DNA from: Psychrilyobacter piezotolerans
Lineage (GTDB): Bacteria > Fusobacteriota > Fusobacteriia > Fusobacteriales > Fusobacteriaceae
Reading direction: 5' to 3'
Assembly (NCBI RefSeq): GCF_003391055.1
Contig: NZ_QUAJ01000026.1
Location: 1 to 38,904, forward strand
DNA: 38,904 nt
Below the pieces are notes generated by a model. The model was not told the DNA's origin, did no database searches, and was given only the letters and a program-made list of their open reading frames with translations. How positions within the stretch are numbered: the first letter of the stretch is position 1; each line of letters starts with the position of its first letter. Shown here one piece after another: positions 16,471 to 25,076 of this stretch. The position numbers were made by a program, and so were the translations under genes.

Positions 16471-16515
16471 AAAAAAGGATTATATGAGTAATTTTACTTA
16501 TATAACCCTTTTTTT
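16471..16515 (+). terminator. Terminator after tag (left twin)
   Basis: AAAAGGATTATATGAGTAA pairs with TTACTTATATAACCCTTTT, then T-rich sequence. A near copy, including the downstream TTTAATACCT, is found at 23500-23554. The 67-aa frame that crosses it is not a gene. Confidence 0.8.
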
Positions 16516-16601
16516 AATACCTTTACCCTTAGTCTCTTTTTCAATGGTAATTATTTCATCTACAATATTTGTCTATTTATTTGGGCTGAACATAAAAAAA
16601 A

Positions 16602-16630
16602 TTGACAACAAAAATAAAATGCACTATATT
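16602..16630 (+). promoter_or_regulatory. Promoter of the c-di-GMP riboswitch transcript
   Basis: TTGACA (16602-16607), exactly 17 bp, TATATT (16625-16630): close to the sigma-70 consensus. Transcription would begin near 16637, about 65 nt before the riboswitch aptamer. Confidence 0.8.
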
Positions 16631-16696
16631 GTAAAGAAATGACTAAAAATATTACAGTTTTAATTAAAATTCAATAATTTTTTAATTAAAATTTAA

Positions 16697-16767
16697 AATG
16701 TTGGCAAAATAGGAGAAATCCTGTGACGCAAAGCTATAGGGCCTTTAAAATGGCAGCCAGTTGCAGA
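16697..16767 (+). promoter_or_regulatory. c-di-GMP-I (GEMM-I) riboswitch aptamer
   Basis: Core elements of the GEMM-I class are present in order: GGCAAAA (16703-16709), a GAAA-capped hairpin AGGAGAAATCCT (16711-16722), GTGACGCAAAGCTATAGGGCC (split over 16723-16743, holding the conserved GACGCAAAGC), then ATGGCAGCCAG (16750-16760) and TTGC closing the basal stem. The class binds one c-di-GMP. The basal stem is weaker than consensus (GTTGCA where GGTTGCC is usual). Downstream are an intrinsic terminator and a co-directional gene array. Whether ligand promotes or prevents termination cannot be decided by eye; OFF switches are common for this arrangement in Clostridia. Confidence 0.88.
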
Positions 16768-16791
16768 TCTTTCGGGATCTGTATTTTTTTT
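16764..16791 (+). terminator. Riboswitch expression-platform terminator
   Basis: CAGATC - TTTCGG - GATCTG followed by TATTTTTTTT, directly abutting the 3' strand of the aptamer's basal stem (16761-16764). The overlap makes ligand-dependent attenuation plausible. Confidence 0.85.
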
Positions 16792-16910
16792 GTAGTTACT
16801 ACTTTTGATTTTTGTCCGCTTGAGACACGAGTATCTAAATTACTTTTATTTGAAATAAAATAATTTAGAATGTGGCTAGAGACGGAAACAGGAGTAGTAT
16901 GAAGAAAATT

Positions 16911-17116
16911 CTAAGGATTCCATCCTTAACTGGCTCTATTTACTTTTTATCTGAAAAAGAAATAGAGGAAAGAAAAGCAGACTTTTTCTAAATGATGTTA
17001 TAGGGGTAAGTCAGAGGTAATTACCGTCTTTTTACAGCTTCAGTCCTCGTTACACTGCGGAACTTATTCTGTTGTACGACTGAGTAGAATTTTTACTGAG
17101 AAGTAGAGTAACATCT
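16911..17116 (-). repeat. Dispersed structured repeat, copy B (inverted)
   Basis: The reverse complement matches copy A (1488-1692) over its full length, with the small hairpin AAGGAT-GGA-ATCCTT identical and the larger variable stem replaced by a CTCTATTT...AAATAGAG hairpin. It sits between the riboswitch terminator and the first gene of the array. The 16792-16910 stretch before it has no ORF and forms a long imperfect hairpin (TACTAC near 16796 with GTAGTA near 16895) around a strong inner stem CTAAATTA...TAATTTAG. Confidence 0.8.
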
Positions 17117-17165
17117 AGAAAAAGAATTTTTAAATAAAAAAAATGCTAGAAAGCAGAAATTTTTT

Positions 17166-17263
17166 ATAGGGGATGGGGTTATGGAAGATATGAATGAAAT
17201 AGTGAATCGGATACTAGATGAAGATAAGGAGATAAAAAATAGCTCGAGTGGTACCAACGGGAC
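17166..17263 (+). repeat. Direct repeat 1: 5' end of paralog genes
   Basis: Ribosome site, start codon and the first ~30 codons of the 17181 gene are nearly identical in DNA to 18836-18940 (shared GAATGAAATAGTGAAT, GGATACTAGATGAAGATAAG). This indicates recent duplication of at least this segment. Confidence 0.8.
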
Positions 17264-17966
17264 ATTGACTATAGAAGAGTTTATGGAAGAAAATTATGAG
17301 GTAAAGAAAGAGTTAGAAGAAGGGGAGGAAGTTCGGTATATAGCCTATGAACCATCAGATGCTACTGGGATATTAAGGTTTATAGTACCTATCTATGTAT
17401 GTTTTTTAACTGCTTGTACTTTTTTTATTATCACTTCATATACTGGGAATCGTTGGATATTTTTACCTACTTTTATTTTATTTCTGCTTACAATAATATT
17501 TATCATGAGTATGGTTGAGGATACTGTAATTTTTACAGATAAATCATTGATTATAAAAAGGAAAAAATATAGTAAAAAATTTATCTATAGTGAGATAAAA
17601 AGGATGAATGTCAATATTTCCCCGGGATGTTTTTCATACAGTATTTATAGTGATAAAGAAAAAATTGGGGTGATTACAACAAATTACAACAGATTTCAGT
17701 TACCTCAAATTTTATTAAAATTTAAAAGCGAATTAAAAATACAAGATGAAATAATGACATCTAAATTATTTAAAATAAAGATACTATTAATAGTTTTAAT
17801 AATGGGATTAATAGGCACTTATCTTGAGCTTTCATCATATTTATTTTTTATGAATTTAATAATTTTATATTTTGATATTATTTTAGTTACTACATATTTT
17901 AAATTACTAAAAAAAGGAAGAATAAAAATAGTCTTGATAAAGAAAAAACTAAAAAAAGTAACTTAG
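17181..17966 (+). CDS. PH-like-domain membrane protein, paralog 1 of the riboswitch array
   Basis: 261 aa, no named family. Order: an acidic cytoplasmic N-terminus with NEIVNRILDEDKEI, then GTNGTLTIEEFMEE and GEEVRYIAYE, shared with the proteins at 17981 and 18850 and partly with 21354. Next come two membrane helices (about 66-87 and 92-112), then a PH-like beta region starting EDTVIFTDKSLIIKRKK...FIYSEIKRM, the bPH2/DUF304 pattern seen in YdbS/YdbT-type membrane proteins. Two further hydrophobic helices (about 197-236) precede a very basic tail. AGGGGATGGGG precedes the ATG. First gene after the c-di-GMP riboswitch. Function unknown. Confidence 0.75.
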   Translation: MEDMNEIVNRILDEDKEIKNSSSGTNGTLTIEEFMEENYEVKKELEEGEEVRYIAYEPSDATGILRFIVPIYVCFLTACTFFIITSYTGNRWIFLPTFILFLLTIIFIMSMVEDTVIFTDKSLIIKRKKYSKKFIYSEIKRMNVNISPGCFSYSIYSDKEKIGVITTNYNRFQLPQILLKFKSELKIQDEIMTSKLFKIKILLIVLIMGLIGTYLELSSYLFFMNLIILYFDIILVTTYFKLLKKGRIKIVLIKKKLKKVT

Positions 17967-17980
17967 AAAATCCAAAGAAT

Positions 17981-18703
17981 TTGAACATATTAATAAATAA
18001 AATATTGGACGAAGACAGTACAATTAAAAACAGTTTGACTGGTACCAATGGAGAATTAACAATAGATGAATTCATGGAGAAATATCCGAAAATAAAGAAA
18101 AGGTTAGAGGTGGGGGAAAAGGTTCGATATATTGCTTATGAAAAGATAAAATCTAAAAAACGTGAATTCAACAAAATTTATTTTGGATCTTTTCCTTTGG
18201 CAGTAGTCTCACTGATTATTACAGTTTATTATAGTTGGCTTTTCTTTCCAATTTTTATGACATTTTTTATGACATTTTTATGTTCTCATGAATTTGCACA
18301 AGAATCAATAATTTTTACCAATAATTCACTACTTACATTAAAAAAAAATAATAAAATAAATAAAATATTATATAGTGAAATAAAAAAAGTGGTTTACAAT
18401 AAAACTCCGAAAAATCCTGAATTTGGAAATTTGATTTTAAAAGGGAAGGAAAATAAATTAATATGTTCTGAAATCTATTTTTCTAAAATCAATCTTTCAA
18501 ATATAATTTATAAAATAGGTATTTCTAAAATGGGAACCACAGAAAAAATTCTAACGTCTATTGCTTATATAGGACTTATAATATGGGTGTTTTTAGCCTT
18601 GATAGCTATTATAGACTTTTATGTTTTTATGCGATTACTATTTTGGATTCTGGGTATTCTTTCCATGTATAGATATATTACAATTAAGAAGGGTAGTAAA
18701 TAA
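17981..18703 (+). CDS. PH-like-domain membrane protein, paralog 2
   Basis: 240 aa. The same plan as the 17181 product: NKILDEDSTIKNSLTGTNG, LTIDEFMEKYPKIKKRLE, VRYIAYEK, two membrane helices (about 69-105), the PH-like block ESIIFTNNSLLTLKK...ILYSEIKKV and two C-terminal helices (about 186-225). The start is odd. The only listed start is TTG 17981 with no Shine-Dalgarno sequence, 14 bp after the upstream stop. Yet paralog-like sequence (ENPKN-LNILINK versus EDIKD-VNEIVNR) extends upstream to a TTA at 17963 where the paralogs have ATG. Translation probably depends on coupling to the preceding gene. Its stop overlaps the ATG of a 35-aa ORF (TAATG). Confidence 0.7.
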   Translation: MNILINKILDEDSTIKNSLTGTNGELTIDEFMEKYPKIKKRLEVGEKVRYIAYEKIKSKKREFNKIYFGSFPLAVVSLIITVYYSWLFFPIFMTFFMTFLCSHEFAQESIIFTNNSLLTLKKNNKINKILYSEIKKVVYNKTPKNPEFGNLILKGKENKLICSEIYFSKINLSNIIYKIGISKMGTTEKILTSIAYIGLIIWVFLALIAIIDFYVFMRLLFWILGILSMYRYITIKKGSK

Positions 18704-18810
18704 TGGACGAACAATATTCTGCTTTTTATGTCGATACAGATAATTACGTTAGGTTTGATAGAGACAATCACAGTTTTATCGATCTATTTGTGATGATTGG
18801 TGTAAACTAG
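18703..18810 (+). CDS. 35-aa ORF translationally coupled to paralog 2
   Basis: ATG overlaps the preceding stop as TAATG. It encodes a mostly polar peptide, MDEQYSAFYVDTDNYVRFDR at the start, ending FIDLFVMIGVN. Composition is richer in Asp and Tyr than the membrane paralogs. No family recognised. It could be a genuine coupled peptide or a chance frame; the exact overlap is the only support. Confidence 0.35.
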   Translation: MDEQYSAFYVDTDNYVRFDRDNHSFIDLFVMIGVN

Positions 18811-18835
18811 TGGCAAAAATATAATAAAAAAAATT

Positions 18836-18940
18836 ATGGGGATGGGATTATGGAAGATATAAAAGACGTGAATGAAATAGTGAATAGGATACTAGATGAA
18901 GATAAGGAGATAAGAAATAGTGATACTGGTACCAATGGAG
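18836..18940 (+). repeat. Direct repeat 2: 5' end of paralog genes
   Basis: Counterpart of 17166-17263, covering the ribosome site, start and first codons of the 18850 gene. Confidence 0.8.
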
Positions 18941-19604
18941 AGTTGACCATAGATCAGTTTATAGAGCAGTATCCTGAGATAAAGAAAGAGTTGTCGGAAG
19001 GGGAGGAGGTTAGGTATATAGCTTATGAAAAAAATAAATCAAGTAAAAATATTGATTACACTCTTAATTTTGTCTTTTTAACATTTACATCAATTTTTAT
19101 TTTATTACTTTTAATTGAACTGCTTGCTTATATGAAATTTAATTTTCTGTATTTTTTTGTTAGCTACTTTTTTATTATGTTAGTTTTATTGATAAAAAAA
19201 TGGATAAAAATACAATAATTTTTACAAATTATTCATTAATTACAGTAAATAAGAATAAAACAGAGAAAATTCTATATACACAAATAAAAAAAATTGATTA
19301 TCTTAAGTTGCCATTTTTTTCAAGTAAAACAGCTCATTTTACTTTTTATGAAAACAAGAATAAAAAATTGGGTTTTAATGAGGGTTTTTCAAAAATAAAT
19401 ATATTAGATATTGTTAAGCAAATCAATTTAAAATTAAATTTTAAAAACGATTTATTTGCTGCACGATTAACTGGCGAATTTATAATATTGATGACGATAA
19501 GTAGAATTATAGAAAATACTCATATTTTTAGTAAGGATACTTATATAGGCATCCTTGCTATATTAGGTAGTGTTTTAATAACATTTAACTTTTTCAAATA
19601 TTAG
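18850..19604 (+). pseudogene. PH-like-domain membrane protein, paralog 3, frameshifted at A7
   Basis: Two frames together reconstruct one paralog. 18850-19218 encodes the conserved N-terminus (NEIVNRILDEDKEIRNSDTG, TNGELTIDQFIEQYPEIKK, VRYIAYEK) and two membrane helices. 19200-19604 encodes the PH-like part (NTIIFTNYSLITVNKNKTEK, ILYTQIKKI) and the C-terminal hydrophobic segment. The break is at a run of seven A (19194-19200), read A-AAA-AAA in the first frame. An eighth A, or a -1 slip on this heptamer, would join them as ...LLIKK-MDKNTIIF. It may be a mutation, a sequencing error, a phase-variable tract or programmed frameshifting. The rest of both halves is undamaged, which argues against old decay. 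Confidence 0.75.
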
Positions 19605-19621
19605 ATGTGAGGAGGATGTTT

Positions 19622-19714
19622 ATGGCAAAAGTAAAATCTTTAAATCTGCTCAATGGATTTAGATATAAAATAAAACTTTTAAGAGAAAATCAAAATAGGA
19701 GGAAAATATGGAAA
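19622..19714 (+). CDS. 30-aa basic ORF overlapping the next gene start
   Basis: GAGGAGG lies ahead of ATG 19622. The peptide is strongly basic, beginning MAKVKSLNLLNGFRYKIKLL and ending RRKIWK. Its last codons overlap ATG 19708 of the 334-aa gene, and the Shine-Dalgarno sequence of that gene (AGGAGG) lies inside it. It resembles the 38-aa ORF at 22738 (LN-x-L-x-x-F ... YKIK), which is placed in the same way before another membrane-protein gene. Possible leader peptide or small protein. Confidence 0.4.
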
Positions 19715-20712
19715 TAAAAAAAATTAAAGAGCTATTAAAAAATACTGTTGGAAAATCAATTATATTGGCGGTGATTTATTCTGTCTTACTGATTATTTTT
19801 CCCAATATACTGTTCCTATTTATTTTGTTAGTTATTCCTATGTTTATATTTTTTTTATGGAAAGCTATCAAAAATAAAGATTTTACTGTGGTAACTAAGT
19901 TTATTTTACCATTTTTATTTATGTTTTTGTTTTACAAATCATATCATTCTATGGGAAAAAAACCTATAGGAGTCAATCTTTTCCATCCTCTCGTTAAAGA
20001 ACGAGTAGAAAAACATTTTAAGGAAAAATATGACTTTGATTTCGTAGTAACCAGAATTTATTATTATTATTACGGAGATGAAGCTCATGGTATGAAATGG
20101 TATCCAGCTATAGGAGGATATCTAAAACATGATAAAAAATTCCCTGTAGGAGTATGGATAAGGGATGGAAAGATAGTCGATAACTATAGAAGGGTGATTT
20201 TTTATAGGGAAGTAGATGAATTCTATAAAAAGATGATCAGTAAACATTTTCCTTGGAAATATTCCTCTACAATAAGTATTTCTATTAGTGAAAAATGGAT
20301 GGTTGATTCCTATGAGGAACTCTTAAAAAAGAAATTTAAAGATAATTATGTAAAAATAATGATTTTTTCGAATAAAGAGGATTTGAAGAAGAAAAAAATA
20401 TCCAAAGAAAAATACCTTAAAACTATCAAAGGGTTCGTAGAAGAATTTTCAAAATATAATAATCATATCGATGACTTTTTCTTACGATTCGATAACACTC
20501 TTTTTGAAGAGAAAACAGAGAAAATGTTGGTTATTAAAAAAAGAGACTTTAAAGGGATTAAGAATGCTGAAAAATATGAAATTATAGCAAGAGATTATAA
20601 TAAAGGGGTTACAATCGATAATTATTATTCTACTATAGATAAAATTTATGAAGAAATAGATCGTTTGAGTAGTGAAAATGAAAATATTTTCAGTGACTTT
20701 GAAAATTATTAA
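19708..20712 (+). CDS. Unknown membrane-anchored protein of the riboswitch array
   Basis: 334 aa. Two or three hydrophobic helices near the N-terminus (about 15-56 and 64-79) are followed by a soluble domain of ~250 residues that is very rich in Lys, Tyr and Asp. Distinct local features are HPLVKERVEKHFKEKYDFDF, a Tyr run (RIYYYYYGDEAHGMKW) and GVWIRDGKIVDNYRRVIFYR. The pattern of a KERVEKHFKEKY helix followed by strands loosely recalls the small YfjL-like/PepSY-sized modules, but I would not assign one. It has a strong AGGAGG. It lacks the GTNG motif of its neighbours. Function unknown. Confidence 0.6.
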   Translation: MEIKKIKELLKNTVGKSIILAVIYSVLLIIFPNILFLFILLVIPMFIFFLWKAIKNKDFTVVTKFILPFLFMFLFYKSYHSMGKKPIGVNLFHPLVKERVEKHFKEKYDFDFVVTRIYYYYYGDEAHGMKWYPAIGGYLKHDKKFPVGVWIRDGKIVDNYRRVIFYREVDEFYKKMISKHFPWKYSSTISISISEKWMVDSYEELLKKKFKDNYVKIMIFSNKEDLKKKKISKEKYLKTIKGFVEEFSKYNNHIDDFFLRFDNTLFEEKTEKMLVIKKRDFKGIKNAEKYEIIARDYNKGVTIDNYYSTIDKIYEEIDRLSSENENIFSDFENY

Positions 20713-20725
20713 AGGAGGGAAATTT

Positions 20726-20749
20726 ATGAAAAAAATATGGAGAAATTGA
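20726..20749 (+). other. Seven-codon frame with strong ribosome site, probable truncated gene start
   Basis: AAAGGAGG precedes ATG 20726, but the frame (MKKIWRN) stops after seven codons, ~40 bp before repeat copy C begins. It looks like the surviving start of a gene lost when the repeat-containing segment arrived. It could also be a minimal leader peptide. Confidence 0.3.
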
Positions 20750-20789
20750 GCTTTGTCGGTCTTTTTCTTTAGCTTTCAATTTTGAAGGC

Positions 20790-20986
20790 GATGTTGCTTT
20801 CACAAAATTTATTCTACTAAGAGCGATATACAAATTAAGTTCCGCAACGTAGTGAGGATTGTATCCCGAAAGCTCGTGGTTATTTTATCTCTACTCAGAA
20901 GCTATTTTCAAAATTTCTGCTTTTCTTTCCTCTATTTTTTTTTCAGATAAAAAGTAAATAGAGCCAGTTAAGGGAGGATCCCTTAG
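20790..20986 (+). repeat. Dispersed structured repeat, copy C (diverged)
   Basis: Shares AAGTTCCGCA, GTAGTGAGGA, CTGCTTTTCTTTCC and CCAGTTAAGG with copies A and B in the same order. The large hairpin (CCTCTATTT...AAATAGAGCC) matches copy B read in reverse. The small hairpin is AAGGGA-GGA-TCCCTT: relative to AAGGAT-GGA-ATCCTT in A and B, two base pairs have changed on both arms while the GGA loop is kept. Confidence 0.7.
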
Positions 20987-21049
20987 ATTTTAATTTTTTC
21001 TATTTAGGTTCACGAGTATAAAAATTAGATGTAAATGAATATAATTTTA

Positions 21050-21310
21050 AATGAGCCTTGATCTGAGAAACAAAGGGAGTCTACCCGCAAGGGGCATCAC
21101 CAAAACTCTAGAATTTTTTCAAAATTAAGAGTATTGCGTCAGAAGATTCCAAAGTTTCCGCTTTTGATACGGGATACTTTTTCTCTGTAGCAAGAAAAAG
21201 TATCCAAAAAGTGCCAGAAGTTTATAAGTTGTCTTAGTGGAGTAAGTCACGATCGTTGTTGTAGGAACAGTACTGCTGAAGTAGAACGACTATAAACTTC
21301 GATTTAAAAG
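21050..21310 (+). other. Non-coding stretch with hairpins, possible fourth repeat copy
   Basis: No ORF. Contains CCC-GCAA-GGG, a GNRA-capped hairpin (about 21080-21090) within GAGT...ACTC, then a perfect GGATACTTTTTCT...AGAAAAAGTATCC hairpin (about 21177-21210) followed by GTGCCAGAAG. A further imperfect inverted repeat GAAGTTTATA...TATAAACTTC closes about 21222-21300. The order hairpin-then-CCA resembles repeat copies A-C, but the sequence is too diverged to be sure. Confidence 0.4.
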
Positions 21311-21353
21311 TGGGGAAATCTGTGTCAAAAAAATTGATAGGAGGAGAAATAAT

Positions 21354-21884
21354 ATGGGAACTTCAAATACGGGAACAAACGGGAAAAAGAGTATAGAGGA
21401 AATCATCAAAAAGGACAGCGTAATAAGAAAACTGCTGGAGAGAGGTGAGGTGGTGGAATATATATCATATAAGAAGGGAATGGGTTACAAAATAATCGCT
21501 GGATTTATGGTTTTAGTTGGAATTTTTGCTATTTTTGCACTGAGAGAATTTATTCTACCTGGAGAGTGGGGGATACCACTTATTTTAGCTTTTTATTTTT
21601 TATGGCCTTTAAATCAAATTTTGGAAGGCTGGATAGGTAAACTTGTTATAACTGATAAAGGTGTAATAGTTAGGACTGCTTTTAGTTTTTTTACAGATAA
21701 ATATTATTATTCGGAAATAAAATCTGTTTCAGTTCAAAAAATATACTATACCTCAATGGTAACCCTAAGATTACAAAACAGAAAAACTGAAGCTAAAGTA
21801 TACTCTCTTTTATCTAGCCTGACTATAGATGAAGCAAAAACAATAGCATTTAAAATTGAAAGTAAATTAAAAGGGAAGGAATGA
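21354..21884 (+). CDS. PH-like-domain membrane protein, paralog 4 (short form)
   Basis: 176 aa. The N-terminus NTGTNGKKSIEEIIKKDSVIR and GEVVEYISYKKG matches the conserved entry segment of the 17181 group, but without the preceding NRILDED block. Two membrane helices (about 47-60 and 67-85) follow, then a PH-like domain: GKLVITDKGVIVRTAFSFF, YYYSEIKSVSVQKI, ending in a helix (TIDEAKTIAFKIESKLKG). This member is closest to ordinary bPH2/DUF304 proteins. AGGAGG precedes the ATG. Its stop overlaps the next gene as ATGA. Confidence 0.75.
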   Translation: MGTSNTGTNGKKSIEEIIKKDSVIRKLLERGEVVEYISYKKGMGYKIIAGFMVLVGIFAIFALREFILPGEWGIPLILAFYFLWPLNQILEGWIGKLVITDKGVIVRTAFSFFTDKYYYSEIKSVSVQKIYYTSMVTLRLQNRKTEAKVYSLLSSLTIDEAKTIAFKIESKLKGKE

Positions 21885-22720
21885 TAGTTATGAGGTACAG
21901 GCTTAAAGATAATGAGGCGATAGTACATGAAAATGAAAATACAATTTTGACAGACAAAAATATCATCAAAGAATCAGGCAAAATTTTTAAGAAAAAAACA
22001 GTGATAAAATTGGGGGATATCAGAAGAAAGAGAATCGAAGGAGATAATATAATCATATCTATCATGAGAAAGAAGAAAATAAGAGAAATATCTTTCATAT
22101 TTTCAAAAGATAGTATAGAAGAAATATTTAACAAGTTGGATGAACTCATAGCGAGATGTAAGAAAAATAACTACAAAACAACTACATCCAAATATCTAGA
22201 AGATTTGATAGATGAAGAAGATAATCCCTATCAATATAAATATAGAAAAAAGAAATATATTATAGTGGGAATACTGACAACTTTGTTTTTGTCTTTTACA
22301 TTTTTACTGACAATACTCTATTCAATATTTGAAATAGGTATAACATTTTATGGAATACTTTTAATATCTCTCTCTCATTATATAATCCATTCATATTTTT
22401 ATTATTTTTTTAATAAACTTATTTTTTTAGATGACGATGTCATATATAGGACATTTTATATGTTGAGATACAGGAGGTTAAATATAAAAAAAAATGTGGA
22501 GTTAATTATACCTATATTTGGTTTAGGAGGTACACAAGTGAAAATAACTTTTCATAATAAAAAACATCCTAGCTTACCAAAACAGATTCTTCTACCAAAA
22601 GGTTTTTTTGCAGTAGATCCATTGGATATTGATGAATTTGAAGAAATTCTTTTAAAATCATTAAAGTATAAAAAGGTAAATATCAACAAAAAATATCACT
22701 ATGAAATTTATAAAAATTAA
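21881..22720 (+). CDS. Two-PH-like-domain membrane protein
   Basis: 279 aa. Start overlaps the previous stop (ATGA), so the two are translationally coupled. The N-terminal ~95 residues form a PH-like sheet (EAIVHENENTILTDKNIIKE, KKKTVIKLGDIRRKRI, FIFSKDSIEEIFNKLDELI), ending in the helix usual for PH folds. A linker and two membrane helices (about 127-148 and 151-172) lead to a second PH-like region (NKLIFLDDDVIYRTFYMLRY, then RRLNIKKNVELIIP, ending in DIDEFEEILLKSL). Both halves face the cytoplasm if the two helices form a hairpin. It lacks the GTNG motif. Function unknown. Confidence 0.7.
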   Translation: MIVMRYRLKDNEAIVHENENTILTDKNIIKESGKIFKKKTVIKLGDIRRKRIEGDNIIISIMRKKKIREISFIFSKDSIEEIFNKLDELIARCKKNNYKTTTSKYLEDLIDEEDNPYQYKYRKKKYIIVGILTTLFLSFTFLLTILYSIFEIGITFYGILLISLSHYIIHSYFYYFFNKLIFLDDDVIYRTFYMLRYRRLNIKKNVELIIPIFGLGGTQVKITFHNKKHPSLPKQILLPKGFFAVDPLDIDEFEEILLKSLKYKKVNINKKYHYEIYKN

Positions 22721-22737
22721 TTTGGGAGAATAATAAA

Positions 22738-22854
22738 ATGACTACATATTACACCCTGAATGAACTCAGGAGCTTTAATCCAAAAAAATCATACAAAATA
22801 AAAATTAGGAAGGTAATATTATCAATAAAACAGAGCACATTCATGAAACTATAG
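22738..22854 (+). CDS. 38-aa basic ORF, similar to the 19622 ORF
   Basis: ATG 22738 follows GGGAGAATAATAAA. The product begins MTTYYTLNELRSFNPKKSYK and contains YKIKIRK. It shares LN-x-L-x-x-F and YKIK with the 30-aa ORF at 19622 and, like it, overlaps the start region of a downstream membrane-protein gene. Possibly a leader peptide or a small companion protein. Confidence 0.4.
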   Translation: MTTYYTLNELRSFNPKKSYKIKIRKVILSIKQSTFMKL

Positions 22855-23423
22855 ACAAAAAAGAAAGAATAATAGTAACTCTTATATTAACTGCAATAGT
22901 TATTGTAAGTTACTTTTTAATGAAAATATCAATTATAAATGAATATTTTAAGGTTCTAGGATTTGTTAGTAAATTGCTACAGGTTACAATCCCATTATTA
23001 ATTTATATTTATTACGATAATAAATCAAGCAAGAATCTGGACAAATTTATGATTTTTTATCTGTTAAGATGTCTTTTAATCTCTGCAGTGCCATTAATAA
23101 TGCCATTAAATAAAAACAACTTTTTATTATTTATTGTTTTATTTAATTCAATATATTATATAACAACTTTTTTACCATATAATCTAAGCTTTATAAATGA
23201 TATGAAAATAAATTCTATAAAAAATTCTTTGTTACTCACAAAGAAGAAAATTTTTGTCCTTATTTCTTATGATTTTTGGATAATCCTTATATCAACTTTA
23301 GTTTCGCTTAGTATGGATGAAGGATTATTTAATTATATTATTGTCACTAATATATTTTTTAATTATGAAATAAAAAAATACAATATTTGGAAACAGGAGG
23401 TAAAAAATGAGTACTCTAATTGA
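22818..23423 (+). CDS. Polytopic membrane protein, last gene of the array; probable non-AUG start
   Basis: The first ATG (22920) has no ribosome site and would cut away a hydrophobic helix (IIVTLILTAIVIVSYFLMKI) encoded in frame just upstream. Extending to ATT 22818 or ATC 22821, both just after AGGAAGG (22807-22813), gives ~201 aa with a short hydrophilic N-terminus (NKTEHIHETIDKKER) and about five to six helices, overall Yip1-like in hydropathy. No catalytic motif. The last codons overlap a 22-aa ORF. Start choice is inference; the reading frame itself is firm. Confidence 0.6.
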   Translation: MINKTEHIHETIDKKERIIVTLILTAIVIVSYFLMKISIINEYFKVLGFVSKLLQVTIPLLIYIYYDNKSSKNLDKFMIFYLLRCLLISAVPLIMPLNKNNFLLFIVLFNSIYYITTFLPYNLSFINDMKINSIKNSLLLTKKKIFVLISYDFWIILISTLVSLSMDEGLFNYIIVTNIFFNYEIKKYNIWKQEVKNEYSN

Positions 23424-23475
23424 AAAAGATCTTCTTGATGGGATATGGAAAGAAGATGATACCATTTACTGGTAG
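23407..23475 (+). CDS. 22-aa ORF at the array's 3' end
   Basis: AGGAGG lies 6 bp before ATG 23407; the peptide is acidic and ends in aromatic residues (LLDGIWKEDDTIYW). It overlaps the preceding gene's end and is followed by the array terminator. It is either a real micro-protein or the truncated head of a lost gene. Confidence 0.35.
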   Translation: MSTLIEKDLLDGIWKEDDTIYW

Positions 23476-23499
23476 ATATTTTAGTACAATTTCTTAGAT

Positions 23500-23546
23500 A
23501 AAAAAAGAGATTATATAAGTAAAATCACTTATATAATCCTTTTTTT
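23500..23546 (+). terminator. Terminator of the array (right twin)
   Basis: GAGATTATATAAGT / ACTTATATAATC hairpin with T7. It is closely similar to the terminator at 16471-16515, including CTTTTTTTAATACCT after the stem. Confidence 0.85.
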
Positions 23547-23687
23547 AATACCTGGGAGAATAAATAATTGGAGAAGTGCCAATTCTTTTGGAATATTATT
23601 TTCAGCAGGGTATACTAGTAAGTAAGTAGGTCTTAAATTTCTCTGGAATAATTTATGTTATTTATTAGAGACAGGAGTTGAAAAAAG

Positions 23688-23992
23688 ATGAGCCAAATAC
23701 TGAAAAAATTAAAGGGCGGGGACTTAAGATCTATCGGCAGATCAAATGAAGTAGTTCAGGAAATATTAGATAAACCCTCTTTGTTTAAGGAGGTTTTTGA
23801 AGGGATGTTGAGCAGTGACCCGATTATAAGAATGAGATCTTTTCAATGCAGACACTGGCTGATTTTGCTGAAAAAGACGAACAACTTAACCCTGAAATAA
23901 TAAAACGGATTAAAGAAATGATGGAAGAAGGGGCACCATCGGTAGTAAGCAGGGGAAAAAAACTCATTAACAGATTGAAGAAAAATGAATAA
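23688..23992 (+). pseudogene. HEAT-repeat-like protein, internal deletion and frameshift
   Basis: The first frame (23688-23900) gives KLKGGDLRSIGRSNEVVQEI, then LFKEVFEGMLSSDPIIRMR, the usual opening of small HEAT-like proteins. The second frame (ATG 23846 to stop 23992) gives FSMQTLADFAEKDEQL, then PEIIKRIKEMMEEGAPSVVS, RGKKLI, the usual ending. The frames meet around 23835-23846, and the central repeats expected after 'IIRMR' are missing. The simplest reading is an in-locus deletion that fused distant parts out of frame. Both ends are still well preserved, so the event looks recent. Confidence 0.7.
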
Positions 23993-24572: not shown

Positions 24573-25076
24573 ATGAAGAAGAAAATTATAATTGAAGACA
24601 AGATGCAGAAAGGCTATTATTATTTAACTGAACCCGAAGGGGAAAACTTTCATCCTGAATTTAAACCGGAACTTACTCCCAAGGAAATGCTGGAATTGGG
24701 AGTTTTCGGAGGAAAATATATGACAGACTGCAGGAAAGAATTTCCTTTATCCTGGTATGAGAATGCCAAGCTCTCACCGGAAATAAAAAATCCAAAGCTT
24801 AATTTTTTTAAAGTAGATGCCTCATTATCTTTAAAAAAGTGGGAGGAGAAGGGATGGATAAGTCCTATGGATCCCAGGGGATGGTTTCAGTGGTATTGCA
24901 GGTATTATTATGGACGACGGATGCCGGAAGAAGACAGAAGACAGATTAAACGATGGAAGGCTATGAAAAGACATGTAGGAGCGGTAAAAAAAAACTGTGC
25001 TCCTATGGATATCCACTGCAGAATCAAACAAAGGCAGGCACTCCTGCACTGGGCCTATGACAGCAGAAAGATATAA
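24573..25076 (+). CDS. Conserved Trp-rich hypothetical protein
   Basis: 167 aa, very rich in Trp, Tyr and charged residues and with no membrane helix. It has long, unusually conserved-looking segments: GYYYLTEPEGENFHPEFKPE, LTPKEMLELGVFGGKYMTDC, FPLSWYENAKLSP, GWISPMDPRGWFQWYCRYYY and HCRIKQRQALLHWAYDSRKI. I recall this as a widely distributed conserved hypothetical, but no function is known to me. GGGGGGAG precedes the start. Cys residues (C52, C110, others) could bind metal, but no motif is clear. Confidence 0.8.
   Translation: MKKKIIIEDKMQKGYYYLTEPEGENFHPEFKPELTPKEMLELGVFGGKYMTDCRKEFPLSWYENAKLSPEIKNPKLNFFKVDASLSLKKWEEKGWISPMDPRGWFQWYCRYYYGRRMPEEDRRQIKRWKAMKRHVGAVKKNCAPMDIHCRIKQRQALLHWAYDSRKI

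Follow-up and report, generated by a model that had tools for sequence, protein, structure and literature searches.

A c-di-GMP-I riboswitch ahead of a lineage-specific array of membrane proteins in Psychrilyobacter piezotolerans

We analyzed contig C26 of the 3.36-Mb draft genome of Psychrilyobacter piezotolerans, in which a class I cyclic di-GMP (c-di-GMP) riboswitch stands ahead of a block of genes for small membrane proteins. The window is this whole 38.9-kb stretch of DNA (38,904 nucleotides, nt), and position numbers refer to it throughout. On balance, we lean toward the view that the riboswitch is a transcriptional ON switch heading a lineage-specific block that encodes small inner-membrane proteins of pleckstrin homology (PH) type (the GTNG-type proteins G1 to G4 and probably PH2) together with a 334-residue protein, P334. 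The riboswitch probably controls the array. That the pairing of the two is not a one-off is supported by the sequences of a second locus on contig C9 of the same genome and of a relic in a sister species (genome G005). The riboswitch class is known, but the array looks like a new sort of target, one previously undescribed for c-di-GMP; a search that covered part of the literature found no paper naming pleckstrin homology with a c-di-GMP riboswitch.

The riboswitch and its expression platform

A preliminary description of this DNA had placed a consensus promoter, a GEMM-I aptamer and a terminator at the head of the array, and all three were recovered (Table 1). By covariance-model search, the aptamer at 16693-16768 matched RF01051 with 59.8 bits against a gathering cutoff of 35 (E-value 2e-9, model positions 1-87) and was the only Rfam match across the window. 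Its position-20 equivalent is G, which is of the c-di-GMP and not the cyclic AMP-GMP (c-AMP-GMP) type, and its position-92 equivalent is C, in a base numbering that we take to be that of the Vc2 crystal structure. On these sequence features, the element is a genuine member of the c-di-GMP-I class. The terminator at 16762-16791 reads TGCAGATC-TTTCGG-GATCTGTA followed by a T8 tract. It is kept in nearly all copies of a 76-nt class of riboswitches in the genus, in which the 5' arm of the terminator starts within the aptamer.

Folding of the window copy placed the C92 equivalent in a pair within the terminator, and keeping the C92-94 equivalents unpaired changed the terminator energy from -10.6 to -0.4 kcal/mol. 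By folding, the terminator and the ligand-bound aptamer would thus be mutually exclusive via the ligand-pairing C. One row (L064_10477), which was wrongly anchored, was left out of the position-20 and terminator folding comparison. In the pilM switch, which is of ON type, aptamer and terminator likewise exclude each other, the ligand-pairing C75 being sequestered when the terminator forms (PMC9262584). Because the terminator stem consumes the ligand-pairing cytosine as in pilM, an ON direction is predicted here, and by this analogy we consider it quite likely that c-di-GMP turns the switch on. Pairing of AGCUAUA with UGUAGUU after the terminator, which appeared in the minimum free energy structure, is not kept in the C9 copy and so was not taken as an antiterminator.

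Array genes and their predicted products

As the preliminary description had proposed, the genes are co-directional and close at a terminator, running from G1 at 17181 to the hairpin at 23498-23545 (Table 1). The GTNG, LDED and RYIAYE motifs by which it had grouped several of the products, one of them split, were present, with 13 invariant columns across five GTNG proteins. The split in G3 could represent a pseudogene, an assembly error or a programmed frameshift. The start of PH2 overlaps the stop of G4 (ATGA). The micro open reading frames (ORFs) noted earlier exist as four short ORFs, some of which (among those at 18703, 19622, 22738 and 23407) have good Shine-Dalgarno sequences; all four are putatively coding.

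Table 1. Features at the riboswitch and array of contig C26 (TM, transmembrane; aa, amino acids).
Feature	Position	Strand	Basis or remark
DUF523-like 3' end remnant, residues 280-298	16516..16572	-	tblastn with intact G001 protein
Promoter TTGACA-17-TATATT	16602..16630	+	11/12 consensus; best in region; TTGACAACAAAAA kept in C9 copy
c-di-GMP-I (GEMM-I) riboswitch aptamer	16693..16768	+	RF01051; G at position-20 equivalent
Intrinsic terminator, expression platform	16762..16791	+	TGCAG common to terminator and aptamer 3' end; overlaps aptamer
Dispersed intergenic repeat in the spacer from riboswitch to G1	16902..17144	+	51 genomic matches, many with 80-90% identity
G1: GTNG-type membrane protein, 261 aa	17181..17966	+	motifs, hydropathy
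G2: GTNG-type membrane protein, ~240 aa, TTG start likely	17981..18703	+	sequence motifs
Short ORF, 35 aa, overlaps G2 stop	18703..18810	+	sequence; putative coding
G3: GTNG-type gene, frameshift-split near A7 run ~19195	18850..19604 (18850-19218, 19200-19604)	+	
Short ORF, 31 aa, overlaps P334 start	19622..19717	+	partly conserved in C9; putative coding
P334: 334-aa protein, two N-terminal TM helices and soluble domain	19708..20712	+	no family assigned
Dispersed-repeat mosaic separating P334 from G4	20796..21310	+	weak terminator-like hairpin 20968-20986
G4: GTNG-type protein, 176 aa, TM hairpin and predicted PH fold	21354..21884	+	structure model
PH2: 279-aa membrane protein, two PH-like halves	21881..22720	+	sequence reading only
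Short ORF, 38 aa	22738..22854	+	sequence; not recognizable in C9 copy; putative coding
Polytopic membrane protein, ~5 TM, no known family	22920..23423	+	profile libraries, hydropathy
Short ORF, 22 aa	23407..23475	+	sequence; putative coding
Palindromic terminator hairpin closing array	23498..23545	.	similar copy at 16471-16518
DUF523-like 3' end remnant, last 11 residues 301-311 (GTSPIIYSPRY)	23548..23580	-	tblastn with intact G001 protein

The structure model of G4, built from four sequences, had a predicted local distance difference test score (pLDDT) of 71. In this model, the chain opens with a short helical N-terminus that includes the GTNG region. The PH strands come next, the first of them set apart from the others by a two-helix membrane hairpin, and a C-terminal helix ends the fold. 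Its best matches among solved structures were 3dcx (Z 11.3 over 105 residues, 2.1 Å) and 3hsa (Z 11.2), both PF08000 bacterial PH proteins, and most of its other structural matches were also PH-like; Foldseek alone gave E-values of 0.02-0.1. We therefore assign a bacterial PH fold to G4 with moderate confidence, as a prediction from the model. The membrane nature of the GTNG proteins is supported, and so is a predicted PH fold for one of them.

The GTNG family and the other array genes were not recognized by Pfam, NCBIfam, PHROGs or PADLOC; among PHROGs, G2 matched phrog_17876 (E-value 9e-4), an unknown family. The label of a two-PH protein that the preliminary description gave to 21881-22720 held insofar as two PH-like halves can be read from the sequence. 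Its likening of the product of 22824-23420 to Yip1 was dropped, as no library gave a Yip1 profile match for this segment; matches of the 22920-23423 protein in other genera (E-values 0.001-0.009, most with internal stops) were treated as noise. Of that interpretation there thus stand a genuine riboswitch, membrane GTNG proteins, one predicted PH fold and a recurrent pairing, and the Yip1 similarity is withdrawn. Beyond the array, a small HEAT-like gene is apparently split into two frames, 23688-23900 and 23846-23992 (window 23688-23992).

The second locus and relatives in the genus

In all, the genome has eight c-di-GMP-I riboswitches. GTNG family members are limited to two loci, on C26 and on C9. 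On one strand of C9, a riboswitch is followed by counterparts of P334 (also 334 residues, 87% identical), of the GTNG protein G4 (75%) and of the two-domain protein PH2 (70%), so that the order riboswitch-P334-G4-PH2 is the same at both loci. DNA identity between them is 87% over 16597-16790 (promoter, aptamer and terminator), 91% over 19639-20739 and 81% over 21229-22737. Directly after the terminator the loci diverge, and their spacers are filled by different dispersed repeats. Since the switch DNA remained 87% identical while the spacer was replaced, the switch is what was kept. The ratio of nonsynonymous to synonymous substitution rates (dN/dS) between the copies was 0.37 for P334, 0.26 for G4 and 0.39 for PH2; the duplicated proteins have thus been under constraint. 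The repeat in the C26 spacer is ~240 bp long and has ~50 genomic matches in both orientations and as mosaics; in the window it was found at 16902-17144, 20904-21002 and 1471-1692.

A search for the GTNG family across 98 Fusobacteriota genomes yielded, besides the C9 locus, one relic in G005 and no other convincing GTNG member. Weak matches in G032 and G037 (E-values 3e-4 and 6e-4, covering query 19-91 only, in frames of ~1,020 residues) were judged not to be family members. Pattern scans of genome and viral contigs gave no confirmed relatives; the patterns were short and drawn from few sequences, such that distant relatives are possible. In G005, a riboswitch of the 76-nt class is followed by repeats and by the truncated 3' half of a G4-family gene (35% identity, G4 residues 91-173). 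G005 also retains, as a relic, the gene that lies at 24573-25076 in the window. In G001, the riboswitch is followed, with no array, by an intact gene on the opposite strand (L066 3593-4528), which we take to be DUF523-like, and by an intact orthologue of the 24573 gene. In both sister species, an A.C mismatch leaves the terminator weaker, at -7.1 kcal/mol. In the window the array is bracketed (16471-16572 and 23498-23580), each DUF523-like remnant lying beside one of two similar palindromic terminators. By sequence, the riboswitch, the array slot, the DUF523-like gene end and the 24573 gene form one shared neighborhood, in which the slot is filled, holds a relic or is empty depending on species; genes upstream differ between species, and synteny holds on the right side only. 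A chance neighborhood was rejected, as the arrangement is found at both GTNG loci and in the G005 relic, though these are related by descent.

Other riboswitch targets of the genus were, by our reading of the sequences, giant repeat adhesins, exopolysaccharide genes, chaperone-usher fimbriae, GGDEF/EAL proteins and TPR proteins. These fit c-di-GMP switching on sessile functions, and the PH array lies outside them, in keeping with the earlier remark that it is not a usual target. In three sister-species riboswitches the position-20 equivalent is A and not G (L066 3130-3205, L069 3023-3098 and L073 6130-6215); that of L069 heads a giant adhesin and that of L073 a fimbrial operon. Such a change in the binding pocket has been linked to c-AMP-GMP sensing (PMC9481103). 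In addition, c-di-GMP-I riboswitches stand in tandem before large repeat adhesin-like proteins at L064 10477-10720, L065 4406-4647 and L071 1259-1500, every copy having a terminator of its own.

Interpretation and comparison with known systems

In the mechanism that we propose, RNA polymerase would start at the promoter and make the aptamer, both of which are seen in the sequence. At low c-di-GMP, the 3' end TGCAGATC would fold into the terminator, as predicted by folding, and take the ligand-pairing cytosine, so that transcription would stop. At high c-di-GMP, the bound aptamer would hold this cytosine, no terminator would form and the genes would be read, following the pilM precedent. The products may form a membrane-PH module similar to YdbS/YdbT, with the single-PH protein G4 translationally coupled to PH2. 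For the array as a whole, we infer a function in modifying or protecting the envelope in the sessile state, when the genus would also turn on adhesins, exopolysaccharide and fimbriae. A bolder version, in which the ON switch directly drives a new membrane system of tandem GTNG PH proteins and P334 that exports or neutralizes a small peptide or remodels the envelope in sessile growth, we consider doubtful.

Several observations weigh against the ON-switch reading. A repeat-derived spacer of ~390 nt on C26 and ~820 nt on C9 separates the terminator from the first gene, and weak terminator-like hairpins lie inside repeats (20968-20986; C9 9605-9587); the array genes may therefore have promoters of their own. 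The P1 helix is weak in this aptamer class, and the ON logic thus rests on analogy. No gene of the array matched a Pfam bacterial PH model at E-values up to 1-10, and the P334 model (pLDDT 54) was too poor for a fold search, leaving P334 without an assigned fold. The two loci are duplicates and not independent. Their history is also not simple, since synonymous divergence (dS) is 0.18 for P334 (19708-20712 against L056 7931-8932) and ~0.5 for G4 and PH2, which suggests gene conversion or separate copying. Finally, the array is patchy, with G3 split and sister species that have a relic only or no array. Much of this would suit an alternative, which we consider unlikely, in which a riboswitch that formerly governed genes at this site is now cut off by inserted repeats from the array that it adjoins, the array genes relying on their own promoters or decaying and c-di-GMP having little effect: the long spacers at both loci and the hairpins within them, the G3 frameshift, the orphan riboswitch of G001 and the truncated relic of G005 all point that way. 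Promoter, aptamer and terminator, however, are intact and conserved at both loci of P. piezotolerans, whereas the G001 and G005 terminators are weakened, and no promoter upstream of G1 was better than that at 16602.

A serious rival to the envelope function, though to our judgment an improbable one, is a c-di-GMP-switched module of bacteriocin type, in which the membrane PH proteins would export, or give immunity to, a peptide encoded by a short ORF. The PHb2 proteins DdE/DdF are needed for export of the leaderless bacteriocin EntDD14 (PMC8657885) and show the same pairing of a one-PH with a multi-PH protein; moreover, several short ORFs have good Shine-Dalgarno sequences, the one at 19622 is partly kept in C9, and the array of paralogues looks like an immunity set. 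Against this, library searches recognized no ABC (ATP-binding cassette) transporter or bacteriocin gene in 16602-23546, the short ORFs are poorly conserved (that at 22738 was not seen in C9), and no family match ties the array proteins to YdbS/YdbT. Quite improbable, in our estimate, is a horizontally acquired defense or mobile islet of PH membrane proteins that landed behind the riboswitch. The G+C content of most array genes is 21-26% (G4 32%) against 33-40% in the surroundings, members were found only in this genome and as the one relic, and the block is flanked by the two DUF523-like remnants and similar terminators. The low G+C may, however, come from membrane coding bias and fast evolution, and the diverged relic behind the G005 riboswitch argues for residence before the species split. 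No integrase was seen, and searches for PADLOC, phage (G1) and plasmid (P334 and PH2) origins gave no match.

If the ON-switch reading is correct, the c-di-GMP regulon would gain bacterial PH-domain membrane proteins, a group whose function, bacteriocin export aside, is poorly understood. The riboswitch offers a handle on genes that no database recognizes, as c-di-GMP probably decides their timing, and a duplicate locus with natural absences (G001 and G005) in one genus makes for a testable system.

Among known systems, the switch most resembles the ON type of c-di-GMP-I (RF01051) riboswitch with the precedent of pilM in Geobacter metallireducens, where the terminator stem is likewise drawn from the aptamer 3' end and sequesters the ligand-pairing C. 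The pilM switch senses cyclic GMP-AMP (c-GAMP), whereas the window aptamer has G at position 20 and is followed by a long repeat-filled spacer and by membrane PH proteins and genes of no known family. The predicted fold of G4 is shared with PF08000 bPH_1 (3dcx and 3hsa; PMC2817789), from which it differs by a membrane hairpin (residues 43-92) after the first strand and by the lack of a Pfam sequence match. In YdbS/YdbT (COG3402/COG3428, PHb2) of Bacillus subtilis, as in DdE/DdF, a small protein with two TM helices and one PHb2 domain adjoins a larger multi-PH membrane protein (PMC8657885). G4 fits this layout with no NCBIfam or Pfam match, and the halves of PH2 are a reading of the sequence, so the likeness of the G4/PH2 pair is one of resemblance, not membership. 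The array has no detectable sequence relationship to YdbS/YdbT, and it differs from them in an extra GTNG N-terminus and tandem paralogues, in having two PH-like regions in PH2 rather than three, and in residing in Fusobacteriota. With the DdE/DdF proteins of the enterocin DD14 cluster it shares membrane PH proteins and nearby short ORFs in one co-directional block, but it has no recognized ABC transporter or bacteriocin, and it has a riboswitch.

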